Positions 621 to 10,643 of a DNA stretch of 37,560 bases are shown here, piece after piece. This stretch comes from Verrucomicrobiia bacterium (lineage in GTDB: Bacteria > Verrucomicrobiota > Verrucomicrobiia > Limisphaerales > CAIMTB01). The stretch's first letter is position 1. Each line of letters begins with the position of its first letter. The translations under genes and the position numbers were made by a program. The DNA is taken from positions 1-37,560 of the forward strand of contig JAHCBA010000009.1 in the NCBI GenBank assembly GCA_019634625.1, read 5' to 3'. The notes beneath the pieces are model-generated. The model ran no database searches and was not told where the DNA came from. It worked only from the letters and a program-made list of their open reading frames with translations.

Positions 621-2138
621 ATGACGAACGCTTTGCGCCGTTTCGCCCGCCGTCGCCTTTCCGGCCTCGGGGGGTGGGTGCTGCTGGCGTTGGGGATCGG
701 GGTGGGAGGGCTGTCCTGGGGGGGGGAACCGCGGGCGCCTTGGGTGGCGGCGGGGCCGCTGTTCCAGACCTTCCCGCTGGCGCTGGAACCGGGGGACGGG
801 GTCGAGGCGCTGGGACCGTTGTTTTACCGGAGGGAGGGGGAGGACGAGACGTTGTGGGCGGTGCCGCCGGTGGTCTCGGTGCTGCGGTCGGATGATGGCG
901 AGCGGGTGCAGGTGCTGGTGCTGCCTCCGCTGTTCACGTGGCGGCGGTACGGGGAGGACATGCGCTGGCAACTGGTCCAGTGGATCAATGGGTCGCGGTT
1001 GGAGCGCATTGACGAGGACCGGGAGGTGCGGCGGTTCAACCTGTTCCCATTCTGGTTCTACCAGGACGCACCGGATCCGGAGCAGGACTATTGGGCGTTG
1101 TTTCCGTTTTACGGGACGCTGCGGAACCGGATGTTCCGGGACGAGGCGGAGTTTGTTCTGTTTCCCTTGTGGCTGAAGACGCGGAAGGGGACGATGACCA
1201 CGCGGAACGTGTTGTTTCCGGTGGTGCATACGCGGGAGGGTCCGGGATTGCGGGGGTGGCAGGTGTGGCCGCTGGTCGGGCATGAACGGCGGGCACCGGG
1301 GGTCCGGACCAATGTGGTGGACGAGATCGAGGTGGTGCCCGGGCACGACAAGACGTTTGCCCTGTGGCCGGTCTTTTTCCGGAACCGGCTTGGTCTGGGC
1401 ACGGAATCGCCGGCCCGGGTGGATGCGGCGCTGCCGCTGTTCTACGCCGAGCGGTCGCCGGCCCGGGACCACACGTCGGTTTTGTGGCCGCTGGTCTCGT
1501 GGACGGAGAACCGCGAGGAGCGGTTCCGGCAGTGGAACGCGCCCTGGCCGCTCGTCGGGTTCGCGCGGGGCGAGGGCAAGACGCTGGACCGGGTGATCCC
1601 GTTTTTCAGTGTGGGCCGGACGGAGACGTTCGAGTCGGAGTCGTATCTGTGGCCGCTGTACCGGCGGCGCCATCTGATGACCGAATCGATCGACCGTGAC
1701 CGGCGGCAGTGGGCGGTGTTTCTCTACGTGGACCTGCGGGAGCAGAATCTGGAGACCGGGCGGACGGCGCGGCGGATCGACTCGTGGCCCCTGTTTTCGT
1801 GGAGCCGTTCGCCCGAGGGGGTGGAGCGGTGGCAGGGATTGTCGGTGATGGAGCCATTGCGGCGGGGGGCGGGGATCGAGCGCAACTGGTCACCGGTATG
1901 GGGGCTGTGGCGGGGGGAGCACGATGGTCGGACGGGGAAGGGGAACCGGTCGATTCTGTGGAATGTGTACCGACGGGATTACGAAGCCGCGATGTCGCGG
2001 ACCTCGTTTCTGTTCGGATTGGTGCAGTGCGAACGGACCGTCGCGGGGCGGCGGTGGAAGTGGTTTCATTTCGGGTCACGCCACGGGGGCGGGGCCGCAA
2101 CCGAGGAGCGAGCGAGCGATGTTCCGGACGATCGGTGA
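621..2138 (+). CDS. Exported protein with repeated W/F-P-L motifs, first gene of mla operon
   Basis: A 505-residue protein I cannot assign to a named family. An Arg-rich n-region (RRFARRR) and a hydrophobic stretch at about 14-31 suggest an export signal. Residues about 141-393 carry at least twelve short motifs of the form aromatic/aliphatic-P-aromatic/aliphatic (LFPFWF, LFPLWL, VWPLVG, LWPVFF, LWPLVS, LWPLYR, SWPLFS). They are spaced about 20-35 residues apart and separated by charged turns, which suggests a beta-rich repeat fold. I chose ATG 621 because the longer in-frame start at 474 would put a dispersed repeat into the coding sequence. The 3' end overlaps mlaE by 20 nt, so the genes are probably co-transcribed. 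A role in outer-envelope lipid transport is inferred from position only. Confidence 0.75.
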   Translation: MTNALRRFARRRLSGLGGWVLLALGIGVGGLSWGGEPRAPWVAAGPLFQTFPLALEPGDGVEALGPLFYRREGEDETLWAVPPVVSVLRSDDGERVQVLVLPPLFTWRRYGEDMRWQLVQWINGSRLERIDEDREVRRFNLFPFWFYQDAPDPEQDYWALFPFYGTLRNRMFRDEAEFVLFPLWLKTRKGTMTTRNVLFPVVHTREGPGLRGWQVWPLVGHERRAPGVRTNVVDEIEVVPGHDKTFALWPVFFRNRLGLGTESPARVDAALPLFYAERSPARDHTSVLWPLVSWTENREERFRQWNAPWPLVGFARGEGKTLDRVIPFFSVGRTETFESESYLWPLYRRRHLMTESIDRDRRQWAVFLYVDLREQNLETGRTARRIDSWPLFSWSRSPEGVERWQGLSVMEPLRRGAGIERNWSPVWGLWRGEHDGRTGKGNRSILWNVYRRDYEAAMSRTSFLFGLVQCERTVAGRRWKWFHFGSRHGGGAATEERASDVPDDR

Positions 2139-2862
2139 GATCATGGTGCTGGGTGGGCGGACGGCGTCGGCTTTGCCGCAGACGTGGCGGCAGCGCCGGA
2201 AGGTGGCCGAGCAGTTGTTCGAGATCGGCAATGCGAGCCTGTTCATGGCCTGCATGCTGTCGCTGTTCATCGGCGGGGTCCTGGCGCTGCAGAGCGGGCC
2301 GAGGCTGGCGGAGCGGGGGATTTCGTCGATGCTGGGCGGCCTGGTGGGATTGTCGATGGCGGAGGAACTGGCGCCGGTGATGATGTCGATCCTGATCGCC
2401 GGGCGGGTCGGGTCGGCGATGGCCGCGGAGATCGGGTCGATGCGGGTGTACCAGGAGATCGATGCGCTGCGGACGATGAACATCAACCCGATCCACTACC
2501 TGGTGCTGCCGCGCCTGGTGGCGATCACGGTGGGGTTGCCGATGCTGGTGGTGTTTTCGATGCTGGTCGGCTGGACGGGCGGGGCGCTGGTGGCCATGGG
2601 CAACCCGGCGATCGGGATCAGCGGGGCCGAGTATTTCAACAACCTGGGCGAGACGGTGGAGCGGTTCGACATTGCCAAGGGGCTCATCAAGAGCGTGGTG
2701 TTTTCGGTGGCCGTCGGGCTGGTGTCATGCAACCAGGGATTGCGGACGTCCGGGGGTCCGCGGGGGATCGGGAAGGCGGTGACGCAGGCGGTGGTGCAGT
2801 CGATCGTGCTGATCCTGATGCTGGATTACGCCCTGACCCGGACGCTGCTGATCTTCGATTGA
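2119..2862 (+). CDS. mlaE: MlaE-family phospholipid ABC transporter permease
   Basis: A 247-residue integral membrane permease of the MlaE/YrbE family, the inner-membrane core of the Mla complex that moves phospholipids between inner and outer membranes. The diagnostic family segment EIDALRTMNINPIHYLVLPR is present, as are several long hydrophobic segments (FMACMLSLFIGGVLAL, LVVFSMLVGWTGGALVAM, the C-terminal SIVLILMLDYALTRTLL). ATG 2119 was chosen because homology begins there (MFRTIGEIMVLGG) and AGGAG lies about 11 nt upstream. The start sits inside the end of the preceding gene, and the stop shares bases with the next start (TGATGA). This is typical of a translationally coupled mlaE-mlaF pair. 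Confidence 0.93.
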   Translation: MFRTIGEIMVLGGRTASALPQTWRQRRKVAEQLFEIGNASLFMACMLSLFIGGVLALQSGPRLAERGISSMLGGLVGLSMAEELAPVMMSILIAGRVGSAMAAEIGSMRVYQEIDALRTMNINPIHYLVLPRLVAITVGLPMLVVFSMLVGWTGGALVAMGNPAIGISGAEYFNNLGETVERFDIAKGLIKSVVFSVAVGLVSCNQGLRTSGGPRGIGKAVTQAVVQSIVLILMLDYALTRTLLIFD

Positions 2863-3620
2863 TGAACGCGAAGCAACACAGGGTGGGGGTCGAGATCCGC
2901 GGTCTGCGGAAGGGGTTTGGCGGTGTCGAGGTCCTGCGTGGGATCGACCTCACGATCGAGCCGGGCGAGGTGTTCGTCCTGATGGGCCCCAGCGGGAGCG
3001 GCAAGACGGTGCTGTTGCGCCAGATCATCGGGCTGGACCGGCCGGATGCGGGGGAGGTTCGTGTGGACGGGGAGCCGGTCCAGTCCGACGGGCTGGCGGG
3101 GCGGGTGCGGATGGCGATGGTATTCCAGTCGGCGGCGCTGCTGAACTCGCTGACCGTAGGGGAGAACGTGGGGTTGTACCTGACGGAGCATCGTCTGCAG
3201 CCGCATGCGGTGGTGGAGCGGATTGTGTCGGAGAAGCTGCACCTGCTGGGGTTGTCGGGGGCGGAGGGCAAGCTGCCCGCCGAGCTGTCCGGGGGGATGC
3301 GCAAGCGGGTGGCGATTGCCCGGGCGCTGGTGATGGAACCTCAGTTGCTGCTGTACGACGAGCCGACCAGCGAACTGGATCCGCTGCGGACGGCGACCAT
3401 CGGGCGGGAGATCCGGAACCTGAACCGGCGCCTTGGGGTGACGTCGATCGTGGTAACGCACGACCGCGATCTGGCGATGGGGGTGGGGCATCGGATCGCC
3501 TTTCTGCATGAGGGTGCGGTGCGGTTTGTCGGGACACCCGAGGGATTGAGCGCCAGCGAGGACACCCTGATCCGCGATTTTCTGACCGTCGATTTCAACG
3601 CCACCTCCGTCTCCGACTGA
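2862..3620 (+). CDS. mlaF: MlaF-family ABC transporter ATP-binding protein
   Basis: A 252-residue cytoplasmic ATPase that powers the MlaE permease. All ABC motifs are visible: Walker A GPSGSGKT at about residues 42-49, signature LSGGMRKRVAIARAL, Walker B LLLYDEPTSELDP and the H-loop VVTHD. The signature variant SGGMRKR is typical of MlaF/MKL proteins rather than general importers. The start is ATG 2862, overlapping the mlaE stop (ATGA), and the end is 5 nt before mlaD. An out-of-frame upstream extension (from 2184) is antisense-like and was discarded. Confidence 0.94.
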   Translation: MNAKQHRVGVEIRGLRKGFGGVEVLRGIDLTIEPGEVFVLMGPSGSGKTVLLRQIIGLDRPDAGEVRVDGEPVQSDGLAGRVRMAMVFQSAALLNSLTVGENVGLYLTEHRLQPHAVVERIVSEKLHLLGLSGAEGKLPAELSGGMRKRVAIARALVMEPQLLLYDEPTSELDPLRTATIGREIRNLNRRLGVTSIVVTHDRDLAMGVGHRIAFLHEGAVRFVGTPEGLSASEDTLIRDFLTVDFNATSVSD

Positions 3621-3625
3621 ATGCC

Positions 3626-4618
3626 ATGAAAAGTTCGCTTGAAACCCGGTTGGGCGTGTTCTTCGCCCTTGTCATCCTGGCCGCCGTCGTGCTGCTCGAA
3701 GTGTCCGGTGGATTGACCTTCTTCCGGAAGGCGACCCATGTGCGGGCCCGGTTCGATGCGGTGAACGAGCTGCAGCCCGGCGCCCCGGTGAAGCTGGCGG
3801 GGGTGCCGGTCGGGCAGGTCCGCGGTGTTGCCATCGAGGACAACAAGGTGGTGGTCACGATGCGGCTGCGAGCGGACGTGGATGTGCGGACGGACAGCCG
3901 GGCGATCATCCGGTTCGCCGGGCTGATGGGGCAGAACTACGTCGCGCTCACGTTTGGATCGCCCGGGGCGCCGCGGGTGACGGAGGGGACGGAGCTGGCG
4001 GCCGAGACGCTGCCCGATCTGGGCGAGATCATGGCCAAGCTGGATGCGGCGGCGTCGGGGGTTGGGAACATCACGAACCTGTTTGGCGGCGACAATTTCC
4101 AGAACCTGCTGGGTCCCTTCACGGACTTTCTGCGGGACAACAGTCCGCGGCTGACGGCCATCCTGGGGAATCTCCAGGTGGTCTCGAAGCAGATTGCGGA
4201 CGGGGAGGGGACCATCGGGAAGCTGGTGAGCGACGATGCGCTGTACACGGCGGCGATCGGCACCATCACCAACATGAACGACGTGGCGGTGCAGATTCAG
4301 GCATTGAGCGGGGACGCCCAGGCGGCGGTGGCCGAGGCGCGGCAGATGGTGGCGGACGTCAGCGCCGGGCAGGGGACGCTGGGCCGTCTGATGCGGGACG
4401 AGGCGCTCTACCGGGAGACCACGGAGGCGATGACCAGCCTTCGGGAGATTCTCGGGAAGATCAACCAGGGCCAGGGGCTGGCGGGCAAGGTCGTCAATGA
4501 CGAGACCTTCTTCAAGAGCGTGAAGGGCACCCTGCAGAAGGTGGAGAAGGCCACCGACGGCCTCGAGGATCAGGGTCCGATCTCCGTGCTGGGAACGGTG
4601 ATCGGAACGTTGTTCTGA
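3626..4618 (+). CDS. mlaD: MCE/MlaD-family lipid-binding protein
   Basis: A 330-residue membrane-anchored MCE protein, the periplasmic lipid-tunnel subunit that sits on MlaEF. One N-terminal TM helix spans about residues 9-28 (LGVFFALVILAAVVLLEVSG). The MCE domain follows at about 38-118, with the characteristic 'L.PGAPVKLAGVPVGQV' and 'GLMGQNYVALTFG' segments. The C-terminal half is helical and contains three copies of a G-x-G-T/L-x-G-K/R-L/V-V/M unit (GEGTIGKLVSDDALY, GQGTLGRLMRDEALY, GQGLAGKVVNDETFF), as in long MlaD/Ttg2C-like proteins. No mlaC or mlaB gene follows. The last 49 nt overlap the convergent tgt gene. Confidence 0.92.
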   Translation: MKSSLETRLGVFFALVILAAVVLLEVSGGLTFFRKATHVRARFDAVNELQPGAPVKLAGVPVGQVRGVAIEDNKVVVTMRLRADVDVRTDSRAIIRFAGLMGQNYVALTFGSPGAPRVTEGTELAAETLPDLGEIMAKLDAAASGVGNITNLFGGDNFQNLLGPFTDFLRDNSPRLTAILGNLQVVSKQIADGEGTIGKLVSDDALYTAAIGTITNMNDVAVQIQALSGDAQAAVAEARQMVADVSAGQGTLGRLMRDEALYRETTEAMTSLREILGKINQGQGLAGKVVNDETFFKSVKGTLQKVEKATDGLEDQGPISVLGTVIGTLF

Positions 4619-5790
4619 GATCCCGCCTGCCCGGAGTCGGTCGGGGCGGGACGCTGGGCGTCGGCCGAGCGGGCGGCGAGGACGCGCCGGGTGGGGATGT
4701 AGCGGGCGAGGTACTCGCGGTGGAACTCCCCGAAGGTGCCGGCCTGCAGGTGCTGGCGGACCTCGGCCATGAGGCGGAGGTAGAGGTGGGTGTTGTGGAC
4801 GCTGACCATGCGCAGGCCGAGGATTTCATCAACGTTGAGCAGGTGGCGGATGTAGGCGCGGGTGAAGCGCTGGCAGCAGAAGCAGTCGCAGCCCTCTTCG
4901 AGTGGACGGAAATCCATGCGGTTGTAGCCGGCCTTGGCATTGAAGGCTCCCTGGTGGGTGTAGGCGGTGCCGTTGCGGGCGACGCGGGTGGGGAGGACGC
5001 AGTCGAACATGTCCACGCCGCGGGCGATGAGCTGGATCATCTGGGCGGGTGTGCCGAGGCCCATGGCGTAACGCGGTTTGGCCGGGGGAAGGTGGGGTTC
5101 GGTCATCTCGATCGCCCGCAGCATGTCGGGTTCGGGTTCCCCGACGCTCACCCCGCCGATGGCATAGCCGTCGAAGTCGAGGCCGACGAGTTCGCGGGCG
5201 CAGCGTTCGCGGAGTCCGGGGTGGGTGCCGCCCTGGACGATGCCGAAGACGCGTTGACCCTCGGCGCGGGGTTGTTCGCGGCATTCGCGCGCCCAGCGCA
5301 GGGTTCGCTGGACGGCGGCCTCGACGTCGCGGACCGGGGCGCCTGCGGGGGGGCAGTCGTCGAAGACCATGGCGATGTCGGAACCCAGCACGCGCTGGAT
5401 GTGCATGGATTCGCGGGGGCCGAGGAAGAGGGGGGAGCCGTCGAGGTGACTGCGGAAGGCGACGCCGTGTTCCTCGATCCTGCGGATTTTGGCGAGGCTG
5501 AAGACCTGGAATCCGCCGCTGTCGGTGAGGATCGGCAGGGACCAGTTCATGAAGCGGTGCAGACCCCCGGCCGCCTCGATGACGTCGAGCCCGGGGCGGA
5601 CGAAGAGGTGGTAGGTGTTGCCGAGGATGATCTGGGTGCCGGATTCGAGGAGTTCGCGGGGGTCGAGGGCCTTGACGGAAGCCTGGGTGCCAACGGGCAT
5701 GAACGTGGGCGTGTCGATGACTCCGCGGGCGGTGGTCAGTCGGCCCAATCGTGCGCGGGTCCCGGAGTCCGTCGTCAGGAGTTCGAACAT
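4570..5790 (-). CDS. tgt: Queuine tRNA-guanine transglycosylase
   Basis: A 406-residue enzyme that swaps guanine-34 for preQ1 in the GUN anticodons of Asp, Asn, His and Tyr tRNAs. The general acid/base aspartate is D90 in TDSGGFQVFSL. GIVQGG lies at 184-189. The nucleophile is D263 in MFDCVLPTRVARNGTAYT. The structural zinc site is C301, C303, C306 plus H332 (CDCFCC...VHNTH). The first residues (MFELLTTDSGTRARLG) align with family N-termini, supporting this start. About 30 residues beyond the usual C-terminus are Pro/Ala/Ser-rich and run back over the end of mlaD, giving a 49-nt convergent overlap; an overlong tail is likely. Confidence 0.96.
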   Translation of the reverse strand: MFELLTTDSGTRARLGRLTTARGVIDTPTFMPVGTQASVKALDPRELLESGTQIILGNTYHLFVRPGLDVIEAAGGLHRFMNWSLPILTDSGGFQVFSLAKIRRIEEHGVAFRSHLDGSPLFLGPRESMHIQRVLGSDIAMVFDDCPPAGAPVRDVEAAVQRTLRWARECREQPRAEGQRVFGIVQGGTHPGLRERCARELVGLDFDGYAIGGVSVGEPEPDMLRAIEMTEPHLPPAKPRYAMGLGTPAQMIQLIARGVDMFDCVLPTRVARNGTAYTHQGAFNAKAGYNRMDFRPLEEGCDCFCCQRFTRAYIRHLLNVDEILGLRMVSVHNTHLYLRLMAEVRQHLQAGTFGEFHREYLARYIPTRRVLAARSADAQRPAPTDSGQAGSQNNVPITVPSTEIGP

Positions 5791-7801: not shown

Positions 7802-10132
7802 TCACCTGGGGAGCGACCGGGACCGGGCGGGGAAGAGGAGGCGGAGGCTGTTGAGGACGACGAGGACGGTGCTGCCTTCGTGGCCGAGCACGCCATGGGA
7901 GAGGGGGAGGCGGGCGGCGATGGCGAGGACGGCGAGGACGGCGAGGGTGCCGAGGGAGATGACGAGGTTCTGGCGGATGATGCGTCGGGCGCGGCGGCTG
8001 AGGTGGTGGGCGTGGCGGACGTTTTCGAGGCGGTCGTGCATGAGGACGACGTCGGCCTGTTCGAGTGCGGCGTCGGAGCCGCGGGCGCCCATGGCGATGC
8101 CGACATGGGCGGCGGCGAGGGCGGGGGCGTCGTTGACACCATCACCGACCATGGCGACGCGGCGGCCCTGACGGGACCAGGCGGCGATGGCGGCCACTTT
8201 TTGTTCCGGGCGGAGTTCGGCGCGGACTTCGTCGAGGTCGAGATGGCGCTGGAGGTGATCGGCCGTGGAATGGCGGTCGCCGGTGAGGGCGACGGTATGG
8301 AGTCCGTGTGCGCGGAGATCGGCGACAACCTCGCGGGCCTGGGGTCGGATATCGTCGCGGAGGAGGAGGCGTCCGACGAGGGGTCCGTGGCGGAGCCAGA
8401 CTTCGGAGGTGCCCGGTTGGGGCGGGGGCGGTTCGGGCGCGTCCGGGTGGGAACCTTCGAGGACAAAGTCGCGACGTCCGAGGCGGAGATCGAGGTCGTC
8501 GAGGCGGGCGGTGGCGCCCTCGCCGGGCACGGCTTCGAGGTGGTGGACGGGCGGGGGTTGGAGGCCGAGACGTTTGCCGTGGCGGACGATGGCGCGGGCG
8601 AGGGGATGGGTGGAGAGGCGTTCGACGCCGAAGGCGAGGCGGGTGACGTCCGTTTCGCGGCCGGGAGGAAAGCTTTCGACGGCATCGACGCGCAGTTCGC
8701 CGGTGGTGAGGGTGCCGGTCTTGTCCATGGCGACGACATCGATGTCGGCGAGTTTTTCGACGGCCGCTCCACCGCGGAAGAGGATGCCATGGCGGGCGCC
8801 GTGGGCGATGGCGGCGAGGATGGCGGAAGGGATGGAGAGGACGAGGGCGCAGGGGGAGGCGACGACGAGGAGGGTCATGGCCAGGTAAAAGGCGCTGGGG
8901 CGGTCGGGGGCGCCGATCCACGGAGGGCGGCCGGCGGCCCACCAGACGAGGAACATGAGGACGGTGAGGCCCAGGATCCCGACGGTGTAGCCGGTGCCGA
9001 AGCGGTCGGTGAACCGTTGGGAGGGGGCTTTGAGGCGCTGGGAATCGCGGATGAGGCGGATGATGCGCTGGAGGGCGCTGGATTCGGCGGGGCGGAGGGC
9101 GATGGCTTCGACGGAGCCCCAGAGGTTGAGGGTGCCGCCGAGGACGGTGTCGCCGATCTGTTTGTCCACGGGAACGGCTTCGCCGGTGAGGTTGGATTCG
9201 TCGGCGGCGGTCCTGCCGAGGGCGATCTCGGCATCGACGGGGAAGAGGTCGCCGGGTTTGAGCAGGAGCCGGTCGCCGGGGCGGAGGTGGTCGACGGGGA
9301 CGAGGTGTTCGGAGGCATCGGGTCCGAGGACGACGGCTTCGCGGGGGGCCGTGCGGATGAGGGAGCGGATTTCGCGATGGGTGCGGCCTAGGGCGTAGCT
9401 TTCGAGGGCACCGGAGAGGGAGAAGAGGAAGAGGAGGATGGCGCCTTCGCCCCAGGCGCCGATGGAGGCGGCGCCGGCGGCGACGGCGAGCATGAGGAAA
9501 TGGATGTCGAGGTGACGCTGGCGCAGGCGTTCCCAGACCTCGACGGCGGGGAACCAGGCGCCGGCGAGGTAGGCGGCGGCGAAGGCGGACGGGGCGAGGG
9601 GATGGGTTCCGAGGAAGGCCCCGAGGAGGCCCAGGGCGCCACACAGGAGGGCGGCGACGATCTGGGGTTTCCACTCCTGTTCGGAGGCCTCGCTGTCGGG
9701 GAGGCGGACCTGACGGGGCACCAGGCGCGGGAACGGCTGGTCGCGCCAGCGCCAGAAGCGCGGGGCGGTGGGGCAGGTGACGCGGGCGACGGTGGTGGAG
9801 CCGGGCTGGTGCTGGACGGTGAGGCGGCTGTTGGCGAGGGGCTGGTCGGCCGCCGGGCAATCCGCGCAGTCGGAGGCCCCGGAGAGCAGGGCGCAACCTG
9901 GTCCATCGGGATCGGCCGCGCCGGCGTCGGCGAGCTGGCGGGCCAGGCGGTCGGCGAAGGGGGTACCGACATCGCCGAAGGTGGCGACCGAGAGGGATCC
10001 GGCCGCGTGGTCCACCTTCACGGCCTCGAGGGCCGGCTGGGATTCGAGTTCACGGGCAACGATCCGGACGAGGCAGAGGTCCGTCTGGGTTCGGGCCGGG
10101 GACGGCGGGTTCGTGGACGGAAGGGGGTCCAT
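7802..10132 (-). CDS. P1B-4-type heavy-metal-translocating P-type ATPase
   Basis: A metal-exporting ATPase of about 776 residues. Catalytic features are TGE (316-318), the phosphorylation loop DKTGT with D470, the HP motif STHP (508-510) and GDGVNDAP (663-670). The membrane metal motif is SPC (426-428), not CPC, and the last helices hold HEGST (751-755). This pair defines the P1B-4 subgroup (Co2+, Zn2+ or Fe2+ exporters such as CoaT/CtpD). P1B-4 proteins usually lack N-terminal metal domains. This one has about 150 extra residues: an HMA-like but cysteine-poor segment (18-60) and a Cys cluster (C80, C89, C92). ATG 10132 was preferred over TTG 10171. The start still overlaps the upstream gene's 3' end by 83 nt, so the exact N-terminus is uncertain. 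Confidence 0.9.
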   Translation of the reverse strand: MDPLPSTNPPSPARTQTDLCLVRIVARELESQPALEAVKVDHAAGSLSVATFGDVGTPFADRLARQLADAGAADPDGPGCALLSGASDCADCPAADQPLANSRLTVQHQPGSTTVARVTCPTAPRFWRWRDQPFPRLVPRQVRLPDSEASEQEWKPQIVAALLCGALGLLGAFLGTHPLAPSAFAAAYLAGAWFPAVEVWERLRQRHLDIHFLMLAVAAGAASIGAWGEGAILLFLFSLSGALESYALGRTHREIRSLIRTAPREAVVLGPDASEHLVPVDHLRPGDRLLLKPGDLFPVDAEIALGRTAADESNLTGEAVPVDKQIGDTVLGGTLNLWGSVEAIALRPAESSALQRIIRLIRDSQRLKAPSQRFTDRFGTGYTVGILGLTVLMFLVWWAAGRPPWIGAPDRPSAFYLAMTLLVVASPCALVLSIPSAILAAIAHGARHGILFRGGAAVEKLADIDVVAMDKTGTLTTGELRVDAVESFPPGRETDVTRLAFGVERLSTHPLARAIVRHGKRLGLQPPPVHHLEAVPGEGATARLDDLDLRLGRRDFVLEGSHPDAPEPPPPQPGTSEVWLRHGPLVGRLLLRDDIRPQAREVVADLRAHGLHTVALTGDRHSTADHLQRHLDLDEVRAELRPEQKVAAIAAWSRQGRRVAMVGDGVNDAPALAAAHVGIAMGARGSDAALEQADVVLMHDRLENVRHAHHLSRRARRIIRQNLVISLGTLAVLAVLAIAARLPLSHGVLGHEGSTVLVVLNSLRLLFPARSRSLPR

Positions 10133-10643
10133 CGAGGGGGGCAGTATCCGCGGCAACGGGTGGCGAGGCAAGGGGGTGGATCGGGCTGGCGTTGATGCTG
10201 GTCAGGGCATCCTTGAGGGCGGGGAGGACGGCCTGGTCCTTGGGCCGATTGGAGGCGGTCTTGCTTGCGATGATCCGGGCCAGAGGCAACACGGGGAGGG
10301 AGAGGCCGGCAACGCGTATCGGGATCGCATCCTCGAATTCGCGGGCGAAACCTCTCAGCCCATCCATTCTCAGGACGATGTCGAATGGATCCGAGCCTGG
10401 GCCGGCGAGCATTGGGGGATTGAGATCAAAGGGCGGCACGTAGGCGGCGCCGACTTCCCGAAGCGCGGCCGCCATGCGCTGATCAGCAAGGTCTTCGAAC
10501 CACAGATCGATGTCTTGAGTGACCACAGGAGCTCCCTGCAAGGCGGCGGCCGAGAGGCCGACGACCAGGAACCGGACCTGGTGACGGGTGAGGGATTCCA
10601 GGAGGATCCGCTCAGCGTCGGAAAGCGGCAAAACCTCGGCCAC
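10050..10643 (-). CDS. Nucleotidyltransferase-fold protein (DUF6036/MNT-like)
   Basis: A 197-residue protein with a nucleotidyltransferase-like N-terminus. The segment RFLVVGLSAAALQGAPVVTQDIDLWFED holds the G-[GL]-S helix and a D44-x-D46 metal pair, as in minimal nucleotidyltransferases and the AbiEii/DUF6036 group. Residues about 115-150 include a K-x-x-x-x-R-x-K-D segment (KTASNRPKDQAVLPALKDAL), also common in this group. The last 45 residues are Pro-rich and overlap the ATPase start region, so they are probably just read-through to the stop. The gene overlaps the small upstream partner by 32 nt. Together they could be a toxin-antitoxin-like or tRNA-modifying pair; the sequence does not decide. 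Confidence 0.75.
   Translation of the reverse strand: MAEVLPLSDAERILLESLTRHQVRFLVVGLSAAALQGAPVVTQDIDLWFEDLADQRMAAALREVGAAYVPPFDLNPPMLAGPGSDPFDIVLRMDGLRGFAREFEDAIPIRVAGLSLPVLPLARIIASKTASNRPKDQAVLPALKDALTSINASPIHPLASPPVAADTAPLDGPPSVHEPAVPGPNPDGPLPRPDRCP

Follow-up and report, generated by a model that had tools for sequence, protein, structure and literature searches.

The P1 gene and the mla operon

The window analysed here spans positions 1 to 37,560 of a 184-kb contig (JAHCBA010000009.1) from the 6.7-Mb genome of a Verrucomicrobiia bacterium of the order Limisphaerales (GCA_019634625.1). Near its start lies a gene for a secreted β-hairpin repeat protein of an unnamed family, here called P1, followed by the genes of an MlaEFD lipid transporter. 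Window base 1 is the contig end, and the upstream sequence observed is limited to positions 1-620. The P1 gene (621..2138, +) is an uninterrupted frame from an ATG at 621 to the stop at 2138. It encodes 505 amino acids, is backed by homologues and an AlphaFold2 (AF2) model and is present as a single copy in the genome. The mlaE gene for the permease of the ATP-binding cassette (ABC) transporter (2119..2862, +) was recognized by TIGR00056 (226.3 bits, cut-off 212.2) and PF02405 (237.6 bits). Its ATG at 2119 gives the overlap of 20 nucleotides with the end of P1 that the initial annotation had noted; the same overlap is present in a relative from the genus (L031). Downstream are an mlaF-like ABC ATPase gene (2862..3620, +), scoring 115 bits with PF00005 and 166.5 bits with the MlaF model NF008809, under its cut-off of 441, and mlaD (3626..4618, +). 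The latter encodes a long-type MCE protein of 330 amino acids (PF02470, 73 bits, cut-off 25.1; TIGR00996, 100.2 bits, and TIGR04430, 81.1 bits, both under cut-off).

P1 homologues are conserved next to mlaEFD

Within its own order, 88/97 genomes (57/62 of the good-quality ones) carry a homologue of P1; across Verrucomicrobiota, 124 of 288 sampled genomes do. The P1 family of the order was aligned by hhalign with 30 homologues that come from outside it, from other orders and other classes (probability 100%, E 6e-82, 433 columns); by this profile alignment the far-diverged P1 proteins outside the order are the same family over the whole length.

Gene order was scored in two overlapping samples of order loci, which were mapped by tblastn with contig-edge cases excluded from the counts. 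The mlaE gene lies directly downstream of P1 in 72/77 and 64/78 testable loci. Outside the order, mlaE and then mlaF come directly after P1 in 37 of 39 loci, with mlaD as well in 36 of them. P1, mlaE, mlaF and mlaD are all on the same strand. P1 had been put forward as a candidate partner of mlaEFD, and this conserved order strongly upholds the proposal: homologues precede mlaE in genomes without mlaC, in the order as well as in other orders and classes, and adjacency to mlaE is at odds with a family found mostly away from mla genes. P1 as a partner of MlaEFD is well supported.

In most relatives, a gene for an HpnN-like resistance-nodulation-division (RND) transporter, overlooked by the initial annotation, is found directly upstream of P1 (42/70 and 62/73 testable order loci). 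Order loci without a downstream mlaE have this RND gene upstream in 4/5 and 12/13 cases; where both flanks are visible, neither neighbour is present in one locus per sample (L097, L189). No match to the RND gene was obtained at the 39 P1 loci outside the order. As mlaE is kept in and out of the order and the RND gene only within it, MlaEFD is the constant partner of P1 and the RND gene an addition of the order. In the genome studied here, the HpnN-like RND gene lies together with yebC on another contig (C50; L230:5262-8683 (-)), without P1, and the RND-P1-mla cassette of the relatives seems to be split.

The one RND gene tested, from locus L135, scored 583.7 bits with TIGR03480 (HpnN; cut-off 751.85) and 316 bits with the BstA model NF045600 (cut-off 1400). 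Hopene cyclase was detected over cut-off in 80/97 order genomes, including the one studied here, and is missing from five P1-negative order genomes that are at least 90% complete (G005, G060, G064, G077, G096). Together with the upstream position of the RND gene, also at loci lacking mlaE, this pattern would fit a P1 that mainly serves the RND transporter in export of hopanoids or another lipid, its place before mlaE being secondary. We regard this as quite improbable: outside the order P1 keeps its place before mlaEFD in loci devoid of an RND match, the five P1-negative genomes represent about three lineages, and hopene cyclase occurs in only 4 of the 124 P1-positive phylum genomes. On the last count, a hopanoid-specific role was rejected as the general role of P1. 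Hopanoids may matter for the cassette of the order, not for P1 in general.

Sequence searches with P1 confirmed that the protein is unnamed, as described initially: there was no match in Pfam at E up to 1 or in NCBIfam, and the family profile found nothing at E up to 1 among PDB sequences. A PDB search with P1 alone returned WD40 parts of RAPTOR (E 0.02), a chance match, and a DUF7457 match in one of 80 family members (E 0.006) was likewise taken as chance. A plasmid-borne P1 was rejected, as the plasmid search gave no match. A contig scan confirmed 196 P1 loci, of which the best 80 were taken; the record titles of these best 80 of 196 name mostly metagenome-assembled genomes (MAGs) of Limisphaerales, Pedosphaera or Verrucomicrobia subdivision 3. 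P1 of Limisphaerales was also seen in MAGs titled Akkermansia muciniphila, Klebsiella pneumoniae, Proteobacteria and Omnitrophota (L142, L143, L145, L162, L168, L176), which are probably mislabelled.

P1 marks an Mla type that differs from the MlaC system

MlaE was detected in 96/97 order genomes and in 267/288 phylum genomes. MlaC (PF05494) was present in just 1/97 order genomes, in a search that detected the E. coli control, and in 30/288 phylum genomes, and MlaA in 21/97 order genomes. Neither MlaC nor MlaA (PF04333) gave a match anywhere in the genome studied here. A gene for the STAS protein MlaB is not beside its mla operon; no genome-wide search for mlaB was made. Of the absence of mlaC and mlaB noted initially, the first half therefore stands, while mlaB is not adjacent.

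Among the 288 phylum genomes, 7 carry both P1 and MlaC, 117 P1 only, 23 MlaC only and 141 neither. Three of the seven were checked (G197, G273, G305), and in these MlaC adjoins a different mlaE. Within f66, one family of the class, MlaC is present in 5/5 P1-negative genomes and in 1/19 P1-positive ones (G251; p 1.4e-4, uncorrected for kinship). Of the genomes in which MlaE is missing altogether, 20 are listed and all of these lack P1; one further MlaE-negative genome is not listed. Several MlaC loci show the order mlaE-mlaF-short mlaD-mlaC, without P1. MlaD encoded at P1 loci has median lengths of 327 (n = 69) and 325.5 (n = 36) amino acids in two sets, compared with 145-174 amino acids in the MlaC set (11 detected). 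In the MlaE tree, a 98/90 branch parts the MlaC- and ClpC-linked MlaE proteins from all P1-linked ones. A single clade of P1-linked MlaE was not shown, as the P1 side of this branch also holds L307 (a long branch, no P1) and L292 and L293 (P1-type, no P1). The difference in MlaE clade and MlaD length between the MlaC and P1 systems indicates that P1 distinguishes an Mla system of another type and is not a simple swap within one operon.

The complementary occurrence in f66, with MlaC missing from 96/97 order genomes, is what would be expected if P1 were a soluble lipid-binding shuttle replacing MlaC, taking phospholipid off MlaD to an outer-membrane acceptor. At the sequence level, no PF05494 match was obtained for P1 (E up to 1) or for 80 family members; the structural evidence on this point is given below.

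Two side observations concern the Mla proteins of the order. A second mlaE-mlaF-mlaD set without P1 adjoins clpC in several order genomes (L294, L295, L296, L297, L300, L303). Further, MlaA in Limisphaerales often occupies the N-terminal end of a longer frame (627-815 amino acids). In two such frames (L308:3133-5091 (-) and L309:3422-5422 (-)), the long C-terminal part contains GYSMG, a hydrolase-like GxSxG motif, and is unrecognised by Pfam; it may represent a lipid hydrolase of the outer membrane that is fused to MlaA.

A proposed single-layer β-ribbon fold for P1

The motif [WF]P[LFVIY] occurs 11 times in mature P1 (shuffle mean 1.09, maximum 7, with 0/5000 shuffles reaching 11) and the wider [WFLYV]P[LFVIWY] 12 times (mean 3.5, maximum 11, 0/5000 reaching 12). 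The initial count of about twelve W/F-P-L motifs is thus well above the ~1-3.5 expected from shuffles. The stated recurrence every 20-35 residues was roughly right, although the true repeat unit is a hairpin of ~18-20 residues; prolines conserved in all or almost all of 80 homologues are spaced mostly by 16-22 residues, with some wider gaps of 31-45. These prolines fall between the strands of the P1 model, so that the W/F-P-L motifs mark the links between successive hairpins.

Structure prediction, which had been proposed as a check, yielded an all-β repeat. The AF2 model from 80 sequences has a mean predicted local distance difference test (pLDDT) score of 88.6 and a predicted template modelling (pTM) score of 0.76. 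It consists of a helix at residues 17-32, ~44 strands of 4-8 residues, a short helix near 417-427 and, after residue 487, a charged disordered tail without a terminal strand. The strands, assigned by DSSP on the AF2 models and in line with the conserved prolines, cover residues 48-481 (762..2063, +). When residues 42-262 were modelled alone, the same strands as in full P1 were obtained (pLDDT 93.7). Both strand faces are polar, with hydrophobic fractions of 0.39 and 0.36 at an approximate residue register; the analysis assumes pairing of neighbouring strand ends, and the local pattern alone was trusted. Along the strands, an alternating pattern of conserved polar residues was observed. Short polar strands and a half that folds equally well in isolation suit an open repeat ribbon. 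P1 is proposed to be a long open single-layer antiparallel β-ribbon whose shape, length and curvature we infer from the prediction.

In the structural comparison with VIA-align, both models had CPAP G-box/TCP10, OspA and MORN proteins as their top matches (Z ~9-11), with Z up to 10.2 and 11.3 for the CPAP G-box, up to 9.9 and 10.2 for OspA and 9.2-9.7 for MORN1. One OspA variant aligns at 2.6 Å over 118 residues of the P1 model. These proteins are free-standing single-layer sheets. The MORN sequence repeat of Pfam was found neither in P1 nor in 80 family members, and Foldseek returned no convincing single relative. The initial annotation had envisaged a β-rich solenoid, propeller or barrel. 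The β-rich repeat is borne out by the model; a propeller was rejected, with Foldseek matches to IFT-A and LRP6 reaching a query TM-score of only ~0.1 and half of P1 folding alone.

The remaining suggestion, an outer-membrane β-barrel acting as receptor or exit of the Mla system, could appeal to the all-β fold and to weak matches with LptD, porins and TOM (Z 5.5-6.7). It appears highly improbable: a barrel would call for long amphipathic strands with a hydrophobic side towards the membrane, whereas the strands of the predicted model are short and, at the approximate register used, have two polar faces. Moreover, half of the protein folds on its own, a charged disordered tail takes the place of a terminal strand, and several orthologues are lipoprotein-like. 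The same model bears on the shuttle set out above. ApoB100 is among the fold matches (Z 8.4 and 9.1), and MORN1, whose fold belongs to a similar class, is reported in PMC7725318 to bind individual phospholipids, though not vesicles. Against a shuttle, a single-layer sheet suggests no enclosed pocket, and both faces are polar. The fold of MlaC is compact, unlike 505 residues laid out in ~44 strands. P1 may, as suggested initially, carry lipid in place of MlaA or MlaC, but a soluble shuttle replacing MlaC is on balance unlikely.

The location of the protein was judged from its N-terminus. By eye, it is positively charged and then hydrophobic, resembling a Sec signal, and together with the helix in the model this makes residues 1 to ~34 a probable Sec signal peptide (621..722, +). 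Inspected in the same way, most orthologues carry an ordinary signal peptide and ~6 a lipobox-like signal (L243, L255, L267, L268, L090, L117). An automatic lipobox pattern missed 2 of these ~6 cases and flagged cysteines inside hydrophobic cores. The occurrence of ordinary signals and lipoprotein-like orthologues in one family is most simply explained by a protein that faces the periplasm, and P1 is predicted from its sequence to be periplasmic.

Two other genes were noted in the window. A queuine tRNA-ribosyltransferase gene (PF01702, 504 bits) follows mlaD on the opposite strand (4570-5790 (-)), and a P-type (E1-E2) ATPase of 789 amino acids is encoded at 7802-10171 (-).

Discussion

From the gene and its homologues, their order and distribution and the predicted strands, we infer that P1 contacts MlaD and has a role in lipid transfer. 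We propose, with a probability of about 0.55, that the MlaC-less Mla phospholipid transport system typical of numerous Verrucomicrobiota has P1 as its dedicated part in the periplasm, a docking or bridging β-ribbon that works in the space from the MlaD ring to the outer membrane. P1 would be exported via the Sec route, a few orthologues being lipid-anchored instead, and would fold as an open ribbon of ~44 strands with the W/F-P-L motifs linking the hairpins along one edge. It might then dock the long MlaD hexamer of the inner membrane to the outer membrane, or bridge MlaD towards it, and so act at the place that MlaC and MlaA take in E. coli. An extended polar sheet, as the fold is predicted to be, makes docking or bridging a better fit than shuttling. 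In Limisphaerales, P1 is additionally tied, by gene order, to the HpnN-like RND transporter.

Several observations weigh against this proposal. Gene order alone is no proof that P1 physically contacts the Mla proteins. P1 occurs without an adjacent mlaE in 5/77 and 14/78 order loci and 2/39 others, and a P1-type mlaEFD without upstream P1 was found in two genomes, both incomplete (G013 and G056, each 57% complete; L292, L293). The exclusion of P1 and MlaC across the phylum is weak (Fisher p 0.03, uncorrected for kinship), seven P1-positive genomes having MlaC as well. Regarding the fold, the matches have root mean square deviations of mostly 5-15 Å, and Z scores below 13 in this class may reflect a common arrangement only. 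Finally, with both strand faces polar, P1 offers no obvious greasy path for a lipid.

Alternatively, P1 could serve MlaEFD in assembly or regulation, or be a scaffold of the cell wall, and not itself take part in the transfer of lipid. Conserved polar residues alternating along the strands would suit such a function, and the MORN-like structural analogues are protein-interaction modules, as PMC7725318 describes them. Against this, all listed genomes lacking MlaE are also devoid of P1, which suggests that P1 is a working part; we consider a factor or scaffold of this kind unlikely.

The proposed docking or bridging ribbon would address a gap in published models. In the parts of PMC10665443 on these systems, MlaC of E. 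coli ferries lipid between MlaA and MlaBDEF, the long MlaD of Veillonella, with its own outer-membrane barrel, is proposed to bridge the envelope, and the published minimal model requires MlaEFD only. The MlaD proteins of Planctomycetes, Verrucomicrobia and Chlamydiae (PVC) lack such a barrel, and those parts of the paper name no extra component for them. With PVC MlaD lacking a barrel, P1 fills the gap by position, distribution and presumed cell location. It is thus a strong candidate for the missing part of inter-membrane lipid movement in those Verrucomicrobiota that have it. For bacteria that have neither MlaC nor MlaA, the passage of phospholipids through the periplasm is still to be explained, and a fixed extra gene in a phylum with barrel-less MlaD names a missing part that can be tested. 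The HpnN-like link suggests a route to study the balance of hopanoids and phospholipids in the outer membrane. A bolder version, which is rather doubtful at present, would make P1 the first of a new class of β-ribbons that span the periplasm. If straight, ~44 strands at 4.8 Å would measure roughly 21 nm, and the periplasm has a width close to this. Such a ribbon would join MlaC-less MlaEFD to the outer membrane; in Limisphaerales, it would also unite the Mla pump with an RND exporter of the hopanoid type in a two-way lipid exchange machine.

Comparison with known systems

Like the Mla system of E. coli (MlaFEDB with MlaC and MlaA), the operon described here combines homologues of MlaE, the ATPase MlaF and MlaD. 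It differs in that the genome has neither MlaC nor MlaA, MlaD is of the long type and P1 is added at the operon head. The three-component MlaEFD of Veillonella parvula, as far as PMC10665443 describes it in the parts concerned, shares the long MlaD and the lack of MlaC and MlaA; there, MlaD ends in an outer-membrane β-barrel and tolC and tamB come after the mla genes, whereas here a separate β-protein, P1, is encoded. The gene upstream of P1 at L135 matches the models of HpnN and BstA, RND transporters for hopanoids and sterols (TIGR03480, NF045600), but scores below both cut-offs, and the RND gene of the genome studied here is on another contig. With the CPAP G-box/TCP10, OspA and MORN proteins, P1 appears to share an arrangement of short antiparallel strands in comparisons of predicted models; it has no sequence similarity to them, is larger, is probably exported and is tied to a lipid ABC transporter. 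No paper on P1 or its link to mlaE was found in the open-access literature, subscription papers and preprints being outside the scope of the search, and P1 and the phylum-wide P1-mlaEFD arrangement appear to be undescribed there. The transporter is of a known kind, while the P1 component and its arrangement across the phylum appear, as far as that literature shows, to be the new part.
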